This document shows, piece after piece, positions 29,332 to 36,280 of a stretch of 37,710 bases of DNA. The stretch comes from Candidatus Saccharimonadota bacterium (GTDB taxonomy: Bacteria > Patescibacteriota > Saccharimonadia > Saccharimonadales > Saccharimonadaceae): positions 1-37,710 of the forward strand of contig JAGCST010000020.1 of NCBI GenBank assembly GCA_017964025.1. The letters are read 5' to 3'. How positions within the stretch are numbered: position 1 is the first letter of the stretch; each line of letters opens with the position of its first letter. The notes below the pieces were generated by a model. It ran no database searches, was not told where the DNA came from, and saw nothing but the letters and a program-made list of their open reading frames with translations. A program made the position numbers and the translations under genes.

Positions 29332-32300
29332 ATGCTTGAAATTCGGAGTGTGTCGAAAGTCTACCGGACTGCGGGTGTTGATCGTACTGTTTTAAATAAA
29401 GTACGGATTAATTTTCGTAAGTCAGAATTTGCAGCAATCCTAGGTCCTTCTGGCTCTGGTAAAACTACATTACTTAATATTATCGGCGGATTGGATCATT
29501 ATACGACTGGCGATTTGATTATTAATGAGAAATCTACTAAAAAATTCCATGATAAAGATTGGGATGCTTATCGCAACCACCGCGTAGGGTTTGTATTCCA
29601 GACTTATAATTTAATTCCGCATCAGACGGTTTTAAACAATGTGCGGCTAGCGTTGACTTTAAGTGGAATTTCTAAACGAACATCAATTAAACGTGCTAAA
29701 AAAGCTTTAAAAGATGTGGGATTAGAGGAACACATTAATAAACGTCCAGCACAATTATCGGGTGGACAAATGCAACGCGTAGCAATTGCTAGAGCTTTAG
29801 TTAATGACCCTGAAATATTATTGGCTGATGAACCTACTGGAGCACTTGATTCGGAAACTTCTGAACAAGTTATGAAAATTCTTAAAGAGGTGGCAAAAGA
29901 TAGATTGGTAGTGATGGTGACACATAACCCTGAGTTGGCTCATAAATACGCTACCAGAATTATTACTTTAAAAGATGGGAAAATCACTTCAGATTCTGAT
30001 CCGTATGATGGCAAGATTAAAACTGACCTCGATGCGAAAGAGGCTGGCAAGAAAAGTAAAAAGACTAAAATGTCGTTTTTTACGGCTATGTCTTTGTCGT
30101 TTAATAATTTACTAACTAAAAAGACACGTACTATATTAGTAGCGATGGCGGGTTCGATTGGGATTATTGGGATTGCCTTGATTTCAGCTGTTTCAACAGG
30201 TTTTCAAAATTATATTGATAAAATCGAAGAAGATACTTTGACATCATATCCGTTAGTGTTACAAGAAGAAGCAGCTGACATATCCGGAATGTTACTCAGT
30301 CTTTCTGGTGGGGAATCGGTAGAAACGAATGATAATAAACTCCATGAAAATCAAGTATTAACTTCTACGCTCGGTAGTGTCTCAAATAATGATTTGCCAA
30401 GTTTTATTGATTATCTCGATGCACATGCGACGGAGATAAAAGATGATATCAGATTAATGGAATATCAATATAATGTTGATCCAGTAATTTATACGAAAGA
30501 TGCGACTGGAAAAGTAGCGAAAATGAATCCAAGTAATATGTTTTCATCACTCATCGGTGATAATTCATTATTAAGAAATTATTCTACGATGACATCGGTA
30601 TTTAGACAATTTGATCCAGATAATTTAAAAAGTGGTACAGAACTTTTGGCTGGCCGTTATCCAGAAGAATATAATGAAATGATAGTAGTTCTTAATAATC
30701 GTTCGGAAATTTCAGAACTCATTACATATTCTCTAGGATTCCATGATTCACAAGAATTAAATGAAATTATTACAAAGATTATGAGTGGAGAGAGTGTAGA
30801 AATAAATAATGAGCCTTTGGAACTGACTTATGATGATTTAATGAATGTGGATTTGAGATTGTTATTACCAGCCGATTATTATAAATATAATGAAAAATAT
30901 GAAGTCTATGAAGATATGTCTACTGACAAGGATTTTATGCAAAATATTTATGATAAAGCAGAAAGATTAAAAATTGTAGGTGTAGCGGTAATGAATACAG
31001 AAATGATGTCAGCGGGTAGTGGTATGGCATATTTACCGTCGTTAGTTGAACATATTATTGATAGGTCTAGTAAAACGGAAATTGTTAAAAAACAACTAGC
31101 AAACCCGGAAATTGATATTTTCTCAAATACTAAATTTGGAGATGAAGGGAACGACTTTAATTTCGAGTTCTCGGACTTAGTTTCGATTGACGAAGCTAAG
31201 TTATCACAAGCTTTTGGCGTAAATATTGATCAAAATACAATCTCCGAAAAAACTAAGGAATATATTAATCAAATTTCGAATGATATTACGGCAGATGTTT
31301 CACCAATCCGTGACGATTTATCTGATAAATATAAAAACTTAGCGGAAAAACTTAAAAATGAATTGTTGCTTGCCGGTTCATTCAAAAAAGTAGATATAGA
31401 ATCTATCGTGAGTGAGTTTATCACTAAACAGGATTTTAGTGATCTTGAAAACAAGTATTATCTTCCGACAGACAAGGCGAGCGCTCTATACCAAGGTTTG
31501 TTAGTTGGTACACTACAAGTTTATGTCCAGGAATACACTAGTAAGGCACAGATTCCAAATTTCGACCCAGAAACCAGTGATATTATGGTGAACGCAATTG
31601 CTTTTGATATTGTTGTAAAAAAATGTCTTGATTCAATGCAATTTAATGCAGCTTTTGACGCCATTGCAGTTCCTATGACTGAAGTGAATATGAAAAAGGA
31701 AATTTTAACTAAGGTTGGTAATCTAAGTGCATACCTATCTAGTAGTTTTGCGAATGCTTTTCATGTAGATCAAGATGCAATCATTGGTGCATTTAAATTA
31801 AATTTTTCAGAGGATGAGTTATCGCGCGTAGTGACAGCTATGTTCACTAAAAAGAAAACTTCGCTTGCGACTAATTTGTCTGCTTTAGGATATCAAGATT
31901 TGGATGATCCTACCATGTTATCGTTTTATTTTTGGAGTTTCGATGGTAAAACACGATTTGTCGATTTCTTAGATGGATATAATGATTTAATGAAATCGAT
32001 GGATAAAGAAGAAAAGGTTATTGATTATACTGATGCTACCGGCATATTGATGTCATCAGTTAAAACTATTGTAGATGCCGTAAGTTATGTCTTGATTGCC
32101 TTTGTATCGATTTCACTTGTTGTATCATCGATTATGATTGGTGTGATTACTTACATCTCGGTCTATGAAAGAACAAAAGAAATTGGTATCTTAAGAGCAA
32201 TTGGTGCATCAAAACACAATATATCATCGATATTCAATGCCGAAACATTTATCGTAGGACTTTTGGCGGGATTATTCGGCATAGGATTTTCATATTTAAT

Positions 32301-32484
32301 AATTCCAATAATTAATATGATATTACACCATTATACTGGTGATATACCTTTGTCAGCGACATTGGATCCTCGGACGGCGGTGTCTTTAATTATACTCTCA
32401 GTTATACTTACTTTGATAGCTGGGCTAATACCATCGAGATCAGCTTCAAAGAAAGATCCAGTGGAAGCGCTAAGAAGTGAATAA
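29332..32484 (+). CDS. MacB-type ABC transporter, ATPase and FtsX-like permease fused
   Basis: 1050 residues from ATG 29332. The ATPase domain comes first: Walker A GPSGSGKTT (about 38-46), signature LSGGQMQRVAIARAL, Walker B LLADEPTGALD and H-loop VTHNPEL. A first membrane helix (near 270-290) is followed by a very long extracytoplasmic region (about 600 residues, including predicted helical stretches), then three C-terminal helices with the FtsX motif YERTKEIGILRAIGASK. This is the mechanotransmission type, which moves or acts on substrates outside the membrane rather than importing. The substrate is unknown. Fusions of this type occur in low-GC Gram-positives. Confidence 0.88.
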   Translation: MLEIRSVSKVYRTAGVDRTVLNKVRINFRKSEFAAILGPSGSGKTTLLNIIGGLDHYTTGDLIINEKSTKKFHDKDWDAYRNHRVGFVFQTYNLIPHQTVLNNVRLALTLSGISKRTSIKRAKKALKDVGLEEHINKRPAQLSGGQMQRVAIARALVNDPEILLADEPTGALDSETSEQVMKILKEVAKDRLVVMVTHNPELAHKYATRIITLKDGKITSDSDPYDGKIKTDLDAKEAGKKSKKTKMSFFTAMSLSFNNLLTKKTRTILVAMAGSIGIIGIALISAVSTGFQNYIDKIEEDTLTSYPLVLQEEAADISGMLLSLSGGESVETNDNKLHENQVLTSTLGSVSNNDLPSFIDYLDAHATEIKDDIRLMEYQYNVDPVIYTKDATGKVAKMNPSNMFSSLIGDNSLLRNYSTMTSVFRQFDPDNLKSGTELLAGRYPEEYNEMIVVLNNRSEISELITYSLGFHDSQELNEIITKIMSGESVEINNEPLELTYDDLMNVDLRLLLPADYYKYNEKYEVYEDMSTDKDFMQNIYDKAERLKIVGVAVMNTEMMSAGSGMAYLPSLVEHIIDRSSKTEIVKKQLANPEIDIFSNTKFGDEGNDFNFEFSDLVSIDEAKLSQAFGVNIDQNTISEKTKEYINQISNDITADVSPIRDDLSDKYKNLAEKLKNELLLAGSFKKVDIESIVSEFITKQDFSDLENKYYLPTDKASALYQGLLVGTLQVYVQEYTSKAQIPNFDPETSDIMVNAIAFDIVVKKCLDSMQFNAAFDAIAVPMTEVNMKKEILTKVGNLSAYLSSSFANAFHVDQDAIIGAFKLNFSEDELSRVVTAMFTKKKTSLATNLSALGYQDLDDPTMLSFYFWSFDGKTRFVDFLDGYNDLMKSMDKEEKVIDYTDATGILMSSVKTIVDAVSYVLIAFVSISLVVSSIMIGVITYISVYERTKEIGILRAIGASKHNISSIFNAETFIVGLLAGLFGIGFSYLIIPIINMILHHYTGDIPLSATLDPRTAVSLIILSVILTLIAGLIPSRSASKKDPVEALRSE

Positions 32485-32513
32485 AAAAAGTCGCGGACTT
32501 CTATCCGCGGACT
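32483..32513 (-). terminator. Terminator of the sigma4/alpha-CTD-like gene
   Basis: On the minus strand a GC-rich hairpin, arms AGTCCGCGGA and TCCGCGACT with one bulge, followed by seven T. It overlaps the stop codon of the convergent ABC transporter gene. Confidence 0.8.
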
Positions 32514-32527
32514 TACTTCTTCGGGAA

Positions 32528-33391
32528 TTATTTTTTAAGGGATAAGCCTCTGGTTTTCAGAGCACTTTTGATGTCTGAAATACCTTTCTGACCTATACTC
32601 ATTTTTGACAGTGCCTGTGAGCTAAGAGAACACAGAGTAGCTATATCTTTAATGCCGACGGCATTAAGAGATGCGATTAGCTTATCTGAGAGACCTAAGC
32701 TCTGCAGCGTAAATGAGTTGGTAGTGGCTTCTTCGCCGAATATTTCGGCTTCTTTTTGGCGATATCTTTCTCTAGCCGAAGCGAGAGCTTCGTTTTTTGC
32801 AGCAAGTTTTTCCTCTAGCGATGAAATGGTCTTTGCGGCCATTTTGTTATCACTTTTGGCCTCTGCCAGCTGTTTCTGGAGAGATTCTTGCTCGTGCTGA
32901 GCTCTAGCTAGCTTTTCGCTGTAGGCTTTGATCGTTTGGCTAAGTCTAGCCTCGTTCTCTTTGGAAGACTGGAGTCTAAAGAAGAGTTCTTTTTTCTCCT
33001 GATCTTCACCGCTGAAACGGAGACCTTTTTCAGCCAGTTCGTATATCTCCTTGATATCCGGTACCAGTTTTTTAAGCTGGCCTTTGTAAGGTGATGCCTG
33101 CAGTTTTTTGATGGCTTTGTGAGCCATTTTTGATATCTGGTTCGGATCCATGTTGGATTCTGCTGCAATCTGTTTCTGCAGTTGCTTTTCGCAGTTGAAC
33201 CCAAACCCCCTTAGAAGAAGGTCCTTTTCTTCTTTAGTGAGAGCGCTATCGAAAATCTTAAACATCTTTTGATAGTTATATGGTGGAATTCCGATTGGGC
33301 ACTCTGCCACGTTAGTGATAGCTATAATCAGGTTCTGACCTGGGGTTCTTGAGCTTCTTCCGAATATATTATTTTTTTCTGCATTCTTCAT
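32528..33391 (-). CDS. Sigma region 4-like / coiled coil / RNAP alpha-CTD-like fusion protein
   Basis: 287 residues in three parts. Residues 48-99 resemble sigma-70 region 4 (LTKEEKDLLLRGFGF, then KQIAAESNMDPNQISKMAHK and AIKKL, as in the helix-turn-helix before the terminal helix). Residues 132-218 are a charged heptad-rich coiled coil. Residues 227-287 resemble the RNA polymerase alpha C-terminal domain: LGLSDKLIASLNAVGIKDI and MSIGQKGISDIKSALKTRG, ending LSL. Compared with E. coli alpha, the DNA-contact R265 position is K and N268 is not kept. No sigma region 2 or 3 is present, so it is not a complete sigma factor. It is visibly richer in G+C than its neighbours. A promoter-recruiting transcription regulator is the simplest inference. 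Confidence 0.7.
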   Translation of the reverse strand: MKNAEKNNIFGRSSRTPGQNLIIAITNVAECPIGIPPYNYQKMFKIFDSALTKEEKDLLLRGFGFNCEKQLQKQIAAESNMDPNQISKMAHKAIKKLQASPYKGQLKKLVPDIKEIYELAEKGLRFSGEDQEKKELFFRLQSSKENEARLSQTIKAYSEKLARAQHEQESLQKQLAEAKSDNKMAAKTISSLEEKLAAKNEALASARERYRQKEAEIFGEEATTNSFTLQSLGLSDKLIASLNAVGIKDIATLCSLSSQALSKMSIGQKGISDIKSALKTRGLSLKK

Positions 33392-33439
33392 AGCTTAAAT
33401 CCTTTCTCTTCAAATCCAATCGACATCATAAAATCGTGC

Positions 33440-33457
33440 CTAACCTGTGTCTAACCT
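33440..33457 (-). repeat. Tandem heptamer in the leader
   Basis: AGGTTAG (minus strand) occurs at 33440-33446 and 33451-33457, 11 bases apart, in the leader of the sigma4/alpha-CTD-like gene. Could be a protein or RNA target, or chance. Confidence 0.4.
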
Positions 33458-33490
33458 TTCAGCCTTCTTCCTCCTATCCCTATTAGATTT

Positions 33491-33544
33491 AGTTTGATCA
33501 CAGAATTAAATTTACAAATATAAACTTGGTTCTGTGATCAAACT
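33491..33544. repeat. Perfect 15-bp inverted repeat in a divergent promoter region
   Basis: AGTTTGATCACAGAA (33491-33505) and its exact complement (33530-33544), separated by 24 bases. It lies about 35-90 bases inside the predicted leader of the minus-strand gene. No T-run follows on that strand, so it is not a standard terminator. It could be two operator sites or a long mRNA hairpin. Confidence 0.85.
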
Positions 33545-33586
33545 ATTCACCGAAGTTAATTTGCGATACTTGACGTATATGTTTCT

Positions 33587-33615
33587 ATTATATCATAACA
33601 TATATTTTTTGTCAA
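33587..33615 (-). promoter_or_regulatory. Consensus promoter of the sigma4/alpha-CTD-like gene
   Basis: On the minus strand TTGACA (33610-33615), exactly 17 bases, TATAAT (33587-33592), an exact match to the consensus. The predicted leader is about 190 bases. The rest of the 338-base gene-free stretch holds the inverted repeat, the heptamer pair and the + strand promoter. Confidence 0.9.
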
Positions 33616-33643
33616 TAGATGAGTTAAAATTGTTGTCTTTTTA

Positions 33644-33672
33644 TTGACATGAATCAATATTTATGTTAAAAT
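33644..33672 (+). promoter_or_regulatory. Near-consensus promoter of the 33730 gene
   Basis: TTGACA (33644-33649), 17 bases, TAAAAT (33667-33672). Divergent from the minus-strand promoter, 28 bases from its -35. Confidence 0.8.
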
Positions 33673-33729
33673 GTTTTTACTATTGTACCTTAATATATTG
33701 ATTGAGTAGATAGAACTGGAGGGAGGAAT

Positions 33730-34191
33730 ATGGAATATTTTAAGGATCTAACTACACGAGAGATGTTCTCTAGTATGCGCACAGACGACGTTTGCCAAGC
33801 ATATAGAGTTGGACTCTCAACTAAAAACCCGTTGCTCGCTATTACGGCGCAAAATGAACTGATTCGTAGAGGTGATACAGATATAGTCAGCAAAGAGATT
33901 CATCTTTTCGTCGATGATAACTCTGACCTTTTTGAATCTGATTCTATGTTTGCTCAAATATTGGGCAGTAGCTTATGCCAGCTCGGTATGTATGATCGGA
34001 CGTTGTATTATGTAGGTAAACACATTCTGTCAAATGACAAAAACAGCTATGATGAATTAAAAAATAGTAATCTAGCTGATGATGAGGCTAAGTTGATGGG
34101 AACATTAAGAAGTTTGATTGAGAAATATGATTATTCCAATAGAGATTTCTATGAACTAGCCGATTCTATCTTCGAAGAAAATTCTTTATAG
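33730..34191 (+). CDS. Soluble helical protein of unknown function
   Basis: 153 residues, no signal peptide or membrane segment. The sequence is helix-rich and acidic, with segments such as AITAQNELIRRGD and QILGSSLCQLGMYDRTLYYVGKHIL that could be tetratricopeptide-like, but no clear repeat is seen. I do not recognise the family. It has a strong Shine-Dalgarno (GGAGGGAGG), a near-consensus promoter and its own terminator. It is divergent from the sigma4/alpha-CTD-like gene, which makes it a possible target or partner of that regulator; this is inference only. Confidence 0.75.
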   Translation: MEYFKDLTTREMFSSMRTDDVCQAYRVGLSTKNPLLAITAQNELIRRGDTDIVSKEIHLFVDDNSDLFESDSMFAQILGSSLCQLGMYDRTLYYVGKHILSNDKNSYDELKNSNLADDEAKLMGTLRSLIEKYDYSNRDFYELADSIFEENSL

Positions 34192-34211
34192 AATCTTCTA
34201 TATTAATTTTG

Positions 34212-34238
34212 CCCCCGTATTAATTATGGGGGATTTTT
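34212..34238 (+). terminator. Intrinsic terminator
   Basis: CCCCC, A+T loop with extra pairs, GGGGG, then ATTTTTA. Confidence 0.85.
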
Positions 34239-34264
34239 ATTATTCTGTTAAAAATTGTTGGATG

Positions 34265-34273
34265 TGATATAAT
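34265..34273 (+). promoter_or_regulatory. Extended -10 promoter of tRNA-Gln
   Basis: TGATATAAT, 11 bases before the tRNA 5' end. The -35 is weak. Confidence 0.6.
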
Positions 34274-34284
34274 ATGATTTGTAC

Positions 34285-34359
34285 TGGGGATTCGCCAAGT
34301 GGTAAGGCAGTGGGTTCTGGTCCCACCATTCGGGGGTTCGAATCCCTCATCCCCAGCCA
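34285..34359 (+). tRNA. tRNA-Gln (CTG)
   Basis: 75 bases with encoded CCA. Acceptor TGGGGAT/ATCCCCA, anticodon stem GTGGG/CCCAC, loop TTCTGGT, anticodon CTG (Gln). T-arm GTTCGAA. Confidence 0.96.
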
Positions 34360-34391
34360 GGTTATCTTGCTTTTGTGGAGCGTCATAAATA

Positions 34392-34416
34392 ATCCCTAAT
34401 TATAGGGATATTTTTT
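34392..34416 (+). terminator. Terminator after tRNA-Gln
   Basis: ATCCCTA, short loop, TAGGGAT, then a T-run. May also serve the convergent surface-protein gene weakly. Confidence 0.75.
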
Positions 34417-34525
34417 GTTTTTGATAACAATATCATCCATACATAAATAATTAATTTAGTGTTATTTTTGCAGCGAGTGTAGGATAACCGTGTATTAACT
34501 ATACATGTAAGTACTAATTAAAATC

Positions 34526-36280
34526 CTAATTACTAGAAATACAACGCACCATTAACCCGTCATGTTTGTTTCCATCGTACGCGTCTGAATTAACGTTCGT
34601 GTTGTTGAAGTATACGTAGTAAGCGTAGTAACTATTGGCCCCAGAAGCAGACCAATAAACTCCGTAGGACCCACGGTTGTAAAACGATGAACCATTTATG
34701 AACCCGGGATAAACAAAATTATTAGGATAGGTCCTATATCTTAGAGACATAACTGTTCCGGTAGGCGTAGTATCAGAATTTGAATATACACCATTGCCGC
34801 CTAAGGCGATATCTAGTGCCCCGAATTCTCCTGTAGCGTCTTTGCCTGTAGGTAAATGCCAACCTGTAGGACAGATATCACCAGAAGCTATGTAACTAGA
34901 GCCGTAGCTTTCACCATATTTACCGTGACCTACTGTTGCTGAATACCAGTTGTAATAATTGCCGTAACTATACACGTTACTTGTTATATCATAGTTAGAG
35001 GCAGTGTTATTAGTGAATAGAGTAGTATTGTTGGTAGATAATATAGATTGATCAATACAATTAGATGAGCTAGTTGTACACCAAGCTGTATTGGTTGGAT
35101 CTGTGGTGGCTGAGAGATGATTTGAAGTGGCTGAATTATTATTGGTGAGAGGAAGGGATGGATTATGAGTATTGGCAGATGATAGTTCTGGTGTGTTATC
35201 TAATCTTAAGTTTTCTATCATCCAACACTTACCATCCGCAAGCTTAGCAACTGTATAAACACTGTTGTCTCTAGAGTCTTTTAAGGCCGTAACTGCACCT
35301 TGTGTAAGTGAACTGCAACCACTCCAATTCTGCATGTCACCAGTAGTTCTAATCCAAATAGCATATAATGATAGGCCGTTGGTGGATGTATCAGTTGGTG
35401 TAGTAATAGTTTGGTTTGGACCATAGTTTGTACCTGAATAATCATAGGCTGTATTCCAACCAGCAAAGCCATAGTCATCACGCTTGAAGTTGGGTGCCCA
35501 AAGTTGGACAGATGCATTGTTGCCCGCAGATTGTTTACCCATTTCACCTTGAACTGGAGTCAGGGCATTCGCATTATAGCAAATTTTACCAGCATCACAG
35601 GTTACAGGTCCTAGTTGCTGTTCTGGGTTAGCTACTGCATAGAAGTTGATTATATTAGTGTATATACCAGAAGCCTGACTACTAGATGCTTTGGCACCAA
35701 TTTTGAATTTGATAGTCTTACCATCTGCTGGATTATGAGTATCTATTAGAGTTATTCCACCATTACCGCGTTCTTCTGGGCCATCATTATTATCTAATGG
35801 AAGTCCTGCATAGCCACTAGCAGTGCTACCGGCATTCCCACTAATCCAATTAGTACCATTATCAATAGAGTATGAGTATCCCCAAGTATTATCACTGAAG
35901 TTACTTAATGATGGGGCAGAACCTGCAGTAGTAGCTAGGCTAGTAAAGATATAGTTACTATTGCTAGTGTTGATTAAAGCCGAATTACTATCTTTAGTAC
36001 CTACTGTGGCTAGCAAACTATAACCCTGTGAAGCATTAGTAGCCACTGTGACGTCTATAATATTACTGTCAGATGCAGAACTAGGTGCTAAATTATTAAT
36101 CAACAGATCTCCAGACAAAGTAACCGCAATAGTAGGATTAAAGGTAAAACCAACACCAACAGATGACTGATAAGTTAATGCAACTGAATTGATGGAAAAA
36201 AGAAATGTAGACGACAAAATGAAATAGATAGCCACAGCAAATAACACGCCTAACCTAACTAAAACTTTATTTCTTATCAT
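34526..36280 (-). CDS. Secreted protein with InlB-like repeat and FISUMP domain
   Basis: 584 residues. An N-terminal signal or anchor helix (about 10-31) is followed by a beta-rich domain to about 218 ending in AVANPEQQ, an InlB-type repeat (about 225-312, GFAGWNTAYDYSG ... LYAIW) and a C-terminal domain of the Fibrobacter succinogenes major paralogous type. The latter shows KCWMIENLRLDN, GDICPTGWHLPTGKD, VYWSASG and the final LMVRCISS. The N-terminal half and its domain order parallel the protein at 3182-5833 (NTWGY and NKWGY, ANP followed by an InlB repeat). No LPxTG signal. Surface location is clear; ligand unknown. Confidence 0.82.
   Translation of the reverse strand: MIRNKVLVRLGVLFAVAIYFILSSTFLFSINSVALTYQSSVGVGFTFNPTIAVTLSGDLLINNLAPSSASDSNIIDVTVATNASQGYSLLATVGTKDSNSALINTSNSNYIFTSLATTAGSAPSLSNFSDNTWGYSYSIDNGTNWISGNAGSTASGYAGLPLDNNDGPEERGNGGITLIDTHNPADGKTIKFKIGAKASSSQASGIYTNIINFYAVANPEQQLGPVTCDAGKICYNANALTPVQGEMGKQSAGNNASVQLWAPNFKRDDYGFAGWNTAYDYSGTNYGPNQTITTPTDTSTNGLSLYAIWIRTTGDMQNWSGCSSLTQGAVTALKDSRDNSVYTVAKLADGKCWMIENLRLDNTPELSSANTHNPSLPLTNNNSATSNHLSATTDPTNTAWCTTSSSNCIDQSILSTNNTTLFTNNTASNYDITSNVYSYGNYYNWYSATVGHGKYGESYGSSYIASGDICPTGWHLPTGKDATGEFGALDIALGGNGVYSNSDTTPTGTVMSLRYRTYPNNFVYPGFINGSSFYNRGSYGVYWSASGANSYYAYYVYFNNTNVNSDAYDGNKHDGLMVRCISSN

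Follow-up and report, generated by a model that had tools for sequence, protein, structure and literature searches.

A covarying leader hairpin as a candidate RNA control element of a sigma4/alpha-CTD regulator gene in Saccharibacteria

Introduction

Leader hairpins that are bound by the product of their own gene form a general class of autogenous control elements. Double-stranded leader and mRNA segments can also be cut. Examples are rncO, the leader of rnc in E. coli, which is cut by RNase III, and the mRNA of the S. coelicolor transcription factor gene adpA, which is cleaved by the RNase III AbsB (PMC3997798).

Here, we analyzed a stretch of 37,710 nucleotides (the window), which is one contig of the 0.70 Mb assembly of a Candidatus Saccharimonadota bacterium and contains a long hairpin in the leader of a putative regulator gene. 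Saccharibacteria are tiny epibionts. To our knowledge, their gene control is almost unstudied and hardly any regulatory RNA is known, and we know of no expression tools for them. In the excerpted part of a perspective on Patescibacteria (PMC11665869), riboswitches are named solely as future tools. A search of the PMC literature, with subscription papers mostly outside its scope, retrieved no description of the leader RNA or of a sigma4/alpha-CTD fusion.

Results

The locus and its promoters

The gap of 338 bases at 33392-33729 separates a regulator gene on the minus strand from a small gene on the plus strand. The following features were assigned, those of the gap from the sequence:

32528-33391, minus strand: regulator gene, 287 aa, with an N-terminal part resembling sigma-70 region 4, a coiled coil and a C-terminal domain resembling the RNAP alpha-CTD
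33400-33405, minus strand: likely Shine-Dalgarno motif AAAGGA
33587-33592, minus strand: -10 hexamer TATAAT of the regulator gene, with TG before it
33610-33615, minus strand: -35 hexamer TTGACA of the regulator gene
33644-33672, plus strand: promoter TTGACA-N17-TAAAAT of the divergent gene
33685-33693, plus strand: GTACCTTAA, downstream of the divergent promoter, a motif enriched after TATAAT in the genus
33730-34191, plus strand: divergent gene, 153 aa

The initial annotation had described two near-consensus promoters, and both were found. The minus-strand TTGACA-N17-TATAAT (33615-33587) matches the consensus at 12 of 12 bases and has a TG ahead of the -10 hexamer, and the plus-strand TTGACA-N17-TAAAAT (33644-33672) matches at 11 of 12. 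No convincing family was found for the 153-aa protein in Pfam, NCBIfam or PADLOC. A relative of it is encoded by G075 (L004:2753-3253), in the same divergent position to the regulator gene. At the loci other than the window and L004, different small genes, which form two clusters, adjoin the regulator gene. A small neighbor that differs between loci suggests a module of regulator and partner.

The motif GTACNTTAA was found 231 times at a distance of 4-26 nt after TATAAT in 118 genomes of the genus, compared with 51 times for the reversed control (about 4.5-fold). It precedes apparently unrelated genes, often near the Shine-Dalgarno motif, and motifs of this type are also present in L097, around 470-500 and 1500-1515. 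GTACNTTAA may be a general leader signal.

The regulator family

The N-terminal part of the family matched the Sigma70_r4 profile in 6 of 13 members at E values up to 0.1 (best 2.2e-6), and the family profile matched RpoD in the PDB with an E value of 0.0058; the window protein alone gave a weak sigma match (TIGR02937, E 0.0085). The C-terminal part matched RpoA in sequence as well as in fold. An alpha-CTD was recognized in 5 of 13 members, in the window protein just below the family cut-off (PF03118, E 1.6e-4), and the family profile matched the alpha-CTD structure 1doq at 7.4e-8. The predicted fold of residues 222-287 aligned with RpoA chains with a Z score of 11.3 and an rmsd of 2.0 over 65 residues, in a model with a low overall pLDDT of 56.6.

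A scan of the genome contigs with the window protein as single query revealed no relative. Long matches covering both end domains were found in 15 genomes, all of its own genus, when 394 genomes of the family were searched; the remaining family-wide matches cover just an RpoA-like or a sigma-4-like part. The distribution of the gene is patchy, and it resides at different loci. Its neighbors include genes that we take to encode EF-G (six loci, with a presumed EF-Tu gene on the other flank in four of the six), a Y-family polymerase (three loci) and glycyl-tRNA synthetase (one locus). In the L052-L057 subgroup, EF-G is the neighbor and EF-Tu lies opposite where visible, which is an unusual site for an accessory regulator.

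The hairpin in the window

Four features of the minus-strand leader are relevant for the following analyses:

33440-33457, minus strand: two AGGTTAG heptamers 11 nt apart (sequence)
33487-33492, minus strand: CTAAAT, a conserved stretch at the 3' base of the hairpin (alignment)
33490-33545, minus strand: leader hairpin P2 (repeat search, folding, covariation and model match)
33553-33559, minus strand: TTAACTT, conserved segment directly before the hairpin, GTACWTTAACTT in many relatives (alignments)

P2 starts about 35 nt into the predicted minus-strand transcript and lies about 100 nt from the start codon. A perfect inverted repeat had been noticed initially; the repeat was confirmed, with a 24-nt spacer and with slightly longer arms of 16+16 rather than 15+15 bp. 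The 16-bp outer helix (33530-33545 paired with 33490-33505) is followed by a 2x2 internal loop, an inner helix of 8 bp (33520-33527 with 33508-33515) and the loop AUUU (33516-33519, minus-strand RNA). The 91-nt core of the window folds with a z score of -6.4.

No other perfect stem of the window equals the outer helix in length; 40 first-order Markov sequences of window length contained at most 13 bp. The longest stem in 2000 dinucleotide shuffles of the 338-base gap likewise had 13 bp, and no second perfect stem of 16 bp or more is present in the window plus eight further stretches of the same genome (193,710 bases; maximum, 15 bp). As an exact sequence, the arm TTTGATCACA is unique in the assembly; with up to two mismatches, it was found at 33 places in the genome, including both arms, versus 19 for the reversed control. 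An integron-type or other mobile hairpin was rejected on the basis of the single copy per genome. Elsewhere in the same genome (contig C42, L137:135-209), an inverted repeat with 13-bp arms, separated by 49 nt, is situated about 90 bases after a tRNA-like sequence.

The hairpin has no match in Rfam 15, in which the sole match at E values up to 1 within window positions 32000-35000 was a tRNA. At six related loci, the Rfam 15 matches were far below the gathering scores.

Conservation of the leader in related genomes

Twelve other family members (L004-L009, L050 and L052-L056) share the layout of the leader, i.e., a near-consensus promoter upstream, a segment around TTAAC, a long hairpin, and CTAAAT or a variant thereof. 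One relative genome of the genus stems from a roe-deer omasum. The arms of the relatives are near GATYGCAGAATAGG / CCTATTCTGCRATC or TTTAGATTGCGGAA / TTCTGCAATCTAAA; an exact pattern search with one arm form retrieved G072 only. The initial annotation had named lack of conservation of the repeat in close relatives that keep both genes as evidence against its interpretation. In G075 (L004), the one relative found with both genes in divergent orientation, the repeat is kept. By sequence comparison, evolution has retained the hairpin in other Saccharibacteria at an equivalent position ahead of this rare regulator gene. Two other details that had been highlighted fared differently: the TGATCA core is no conserved feature, and the AGGTTAG heptamers, although present in the window, were found in 0 of 12 related leaders examined and are probably outside the element.

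A covariance model, R1, was built on a 12-row alignment (A2), from which L055 was excluded as a near copy of L054; L051, L057 and L097 are also outside the model. Among 174 genomes of the genus, which belong to uncultured Saccharibacteria as far as they are named, R1 matched 13, with one main place each, invariably in the leader of the regulator gene and accompanied by weaker opposite-strand matches of the same palindrome. The match in the window spans 33477-33567 (E 3.1e-13, the sequence itself being part of the model). Because 12 of the 13 genomes contributed training sequences and the 13th is nearly identical to one of them, the informative part of this result is that good copies were not found elsewhere. 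A second place in a genome with a main element, L096 (G128:C4:32521-32616), matched weakly (E 0.025). In the order, 7 of 392 genomes matched, all of the same genus, and the search of the 394 genomes of the family yielded one further match, in G248 of another genus (L097, E 2.2e-4).

The L097 element lies downstream of a promoter and a GAACCTTAAAA segment and precedes an unrelated 204-aa gene, for whose product no convincing family was found. It folds with a z score of -7.0, relying on G-U pairs, and its longest perfect stem has 9 bp, an unremarkable length that 166 of 2000 shuffles attained as well. Because MAFFT placed the L097 arms out of register, R1 was not enlarged with this sequence. G101 (L051), which was missed by R1, has a hairpin of like build with other bases (z -7.3; arms of 13 bp, a length reached by 1 of 2000 shuffles). 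G077 (L057) contains the regulator gene and no such hairpin, the longest stem in its leader being 7 bp.

Covariation and the discrimination between RNA and DNA

Two readings of the repeat had been proposed at the outset, an mRNA control hairpin and an operator pair, together with an alignment of the arms across relatives as a means to check them. Covariation was found. In the 12-row alignment, 20 pairs form, 90.8% of the cells are paired, and 17 of the 20 pairs are doubly changed. None of 500 shuffles showed covariation as high, and in control structures slid along the alignment only 35-43% of the cells were paired. These double changes suggest selection on pairing, and the conserved core and flanks suggest recognition. 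Both argue against a passive 5' stabilizer or a functionless hairpin carried along with a horizontally moving gene, a view that would fit the patchy distribution of the gene and its different loci, and that we regard as very improbable.

Because a palindromic operator would show paired changes too, three further tests were applied to distinguish RNA from DNA. First, G-U and U-G accounted for 20 of the 42 non-Watson-Crick cells, compared with a fraction of 0.197 expected from composition (p 4e-5); the excess was smaller relative to a column-permuted control, which averaged 0.415 and attained the observed fraction in 8 of 1000 permutations. Second, the interior between the conserved arms is not conserved in sequence and varies in length from 13 to 36 nt, and yet the interiors fold better than shuffles (Fisher p 8e-7 for the 10 non-duplicate members; L006 and L008 were individually not significant). 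Third, the spacing of the arms across these 13-36 nt showed no helical phase in the 10 non-duplicate leaders (Rayleigh p 0.68). The near-duplicates L009 and L056 were dropped from the Rayleigh test and from all Fisher values. The G-U excess, the pairing of an unconserved interior and the unphased spacing favor the RNA reading, as does the kept position in the transcript.

In the operator reading, a dimer of the sigma4/alpha-CTD protein, formed through its coiled coil, would bind the arms as half-sites and repress its own promoter. Both end domains belong to DNA-binding families, the palindrome lies directly downstream of the promoter, and the arm core GATYGCRGAA is conserved in sequence. The mean pairwise identities of the arms are 72 and 79%, compared with 49% for the upstream flank, 49% for the inner helix and 59% for the downstream flank. 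This higher conservation of the stem core is suggestive of sequence-specific recognition, so the DNA reading stays under consideration. However, half-sites on DNA would be expected neither to accumulate G-U pairs nor to enclose a paired, unconserved interior, their spacing is unphased, and the arm is not repeated exactly elsewhere in the genome. Therefore, the operator pair is disfavored, and we consider it rather unlikely.

The remainder of the leader

The absence of a U-tract after the repeat, as initially reported, was borne out in 12 of 12 leaders, which contain one to three T in the 8 nt after the stem; termination is therefore unlikely. The leader segments upstream and downstream of the hairpin showed no excess of structure over shuffles (Fisher p 0.26 and 0.38), and the additional structures P1 (upstream) and P3 (downstream), visible by eye in several leaders, did not exceed shuffles either. 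The predicted accessibility of the Shine-Dalgarno motif ranged from 0.04 to 0.9 in the 12 of 13 leaders that were scored. A reading frame through the leader is open in L005 and L006; by eye, it is closed in L004, L008 and the window, so that the ATGTACWTTAAC of some leaders is no shared start codon.

An RNA switch would arise if the 3' arm had two alternative partners, the 5' arm and an incomplete copy of it close to the ribosome-binding site. By eye, L054-L056 contain a downstream segment similar to the 5' arm, and the 3' arm paired slightly better with the leader downstream than with shuffles (Fisher p 0.035, one of four uncorrected tests). The corresponding value for the 5' arm was 0.79, the individual values were 0.41 in the window, 0.75 in L008 and 0.66 in L004, and the leaders as a whole showed no conserved partner downstream. 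Alternative pairing is thus unsupported, and we give such a switch hardly any credence.

Discussion

The results make it likely that P2 is a control hairpin that acts at the RNA level on the regulator mRNA, be it through processing or through binding. They point to a previously undescribed RNA control element of the regulator gene, as far as can be judged from sequence.

In the mechanism that we propose, a strong and probably constitutive promoter would produce an mRNA whose leader measures about 190 nt. Roughly 35 nt from its 5' end, this leader would form a long hairpin with an outer helix, a small internal mismatch, an inner helix and a short loop, flanked by conserved segments that would be single-stranded. 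The hairpin would act on the RNA after initiation and set the output of the sigma4/alpha-CTD regulator. Within this scheme, we infer the transcription start, the cleavage or binding and the sign of the regulation. The scheme builds on the hairpin with its covariation, on its location downstream of a promoter within the leaders of a single gene family, and on an RNase III gene in the same genome (TIGR02191, E 4.8e-70, over the cut-off). A U-tract is missing, the rest of the leader is no more structured than shuffles, and alternative pairing is marginal; the feature that is left is the long duplex close to the 5' end. The likeliest step would be recognition of this stem, either by RNase III, which would cut it as in rncO, or by a specific protein, for which the encoded regulator is a candidate. 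The sequence conservation of the stem core exceeds what RNase III would need, and a protein that recognizes the core, perhaps the encoded regulator, would account for it. Counter to the scheme are also the low structure of the leader between the hairpin and the start codon about 100 nt away, the gene of G077 with no such hairpin, and the similar element of G248 ahead of an unrelated gene.

Autoregulation by the encoded regulator is plausible and fits the link of the hairpin to one gene family in the genus; the L097 element, which precedes an unrelated gene, speaks against a strict link. In a special form of such an autogenous loop, the stem would imitate, as double-stranded RNA, the DNA site to which the regulator binds, and would be bound through the conserved core. 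We consider this form distinctly improbable. If true, an RNA would mimic promoter DNA for a factor built from two RNA polymerase contact domains.

A strongly covarying leader RNA that is tied to a regulator with two contact domains represents a concrete and testable control circuit. The leader RNA could possibly also serve as a natural regulatory part for Saccharibacteria.

In comparison with known systems, the element resembles intrinsic attenuators and terminators in being a leader hairpin between promoter and gene, but the stem is long and AT-rich and lacks a U-tract in 12 of 12 leaders. With autogenous leader hairpins it shares the occurrence as one element per genome at one gene family in the genus; in contrast to these, binding of the product is hypothetical here, and no mimicry target was found. 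Further parallels are rncO and adpA (PMC3997798), in which double-stranded RNA within an mRNA likewise serves as a post-transcriptional operator. With 16+8 bp in the window and 20 bp in the consensus, the stem spans about two helical turns, and the genome encodes RNase III. Cleavage is hypothetical here. The sequence conservation of its stem core and a downstream gene that encodes a sigma4/alpha-CTD fusion set the Saccharibacteria element apart from rncO and adpA.
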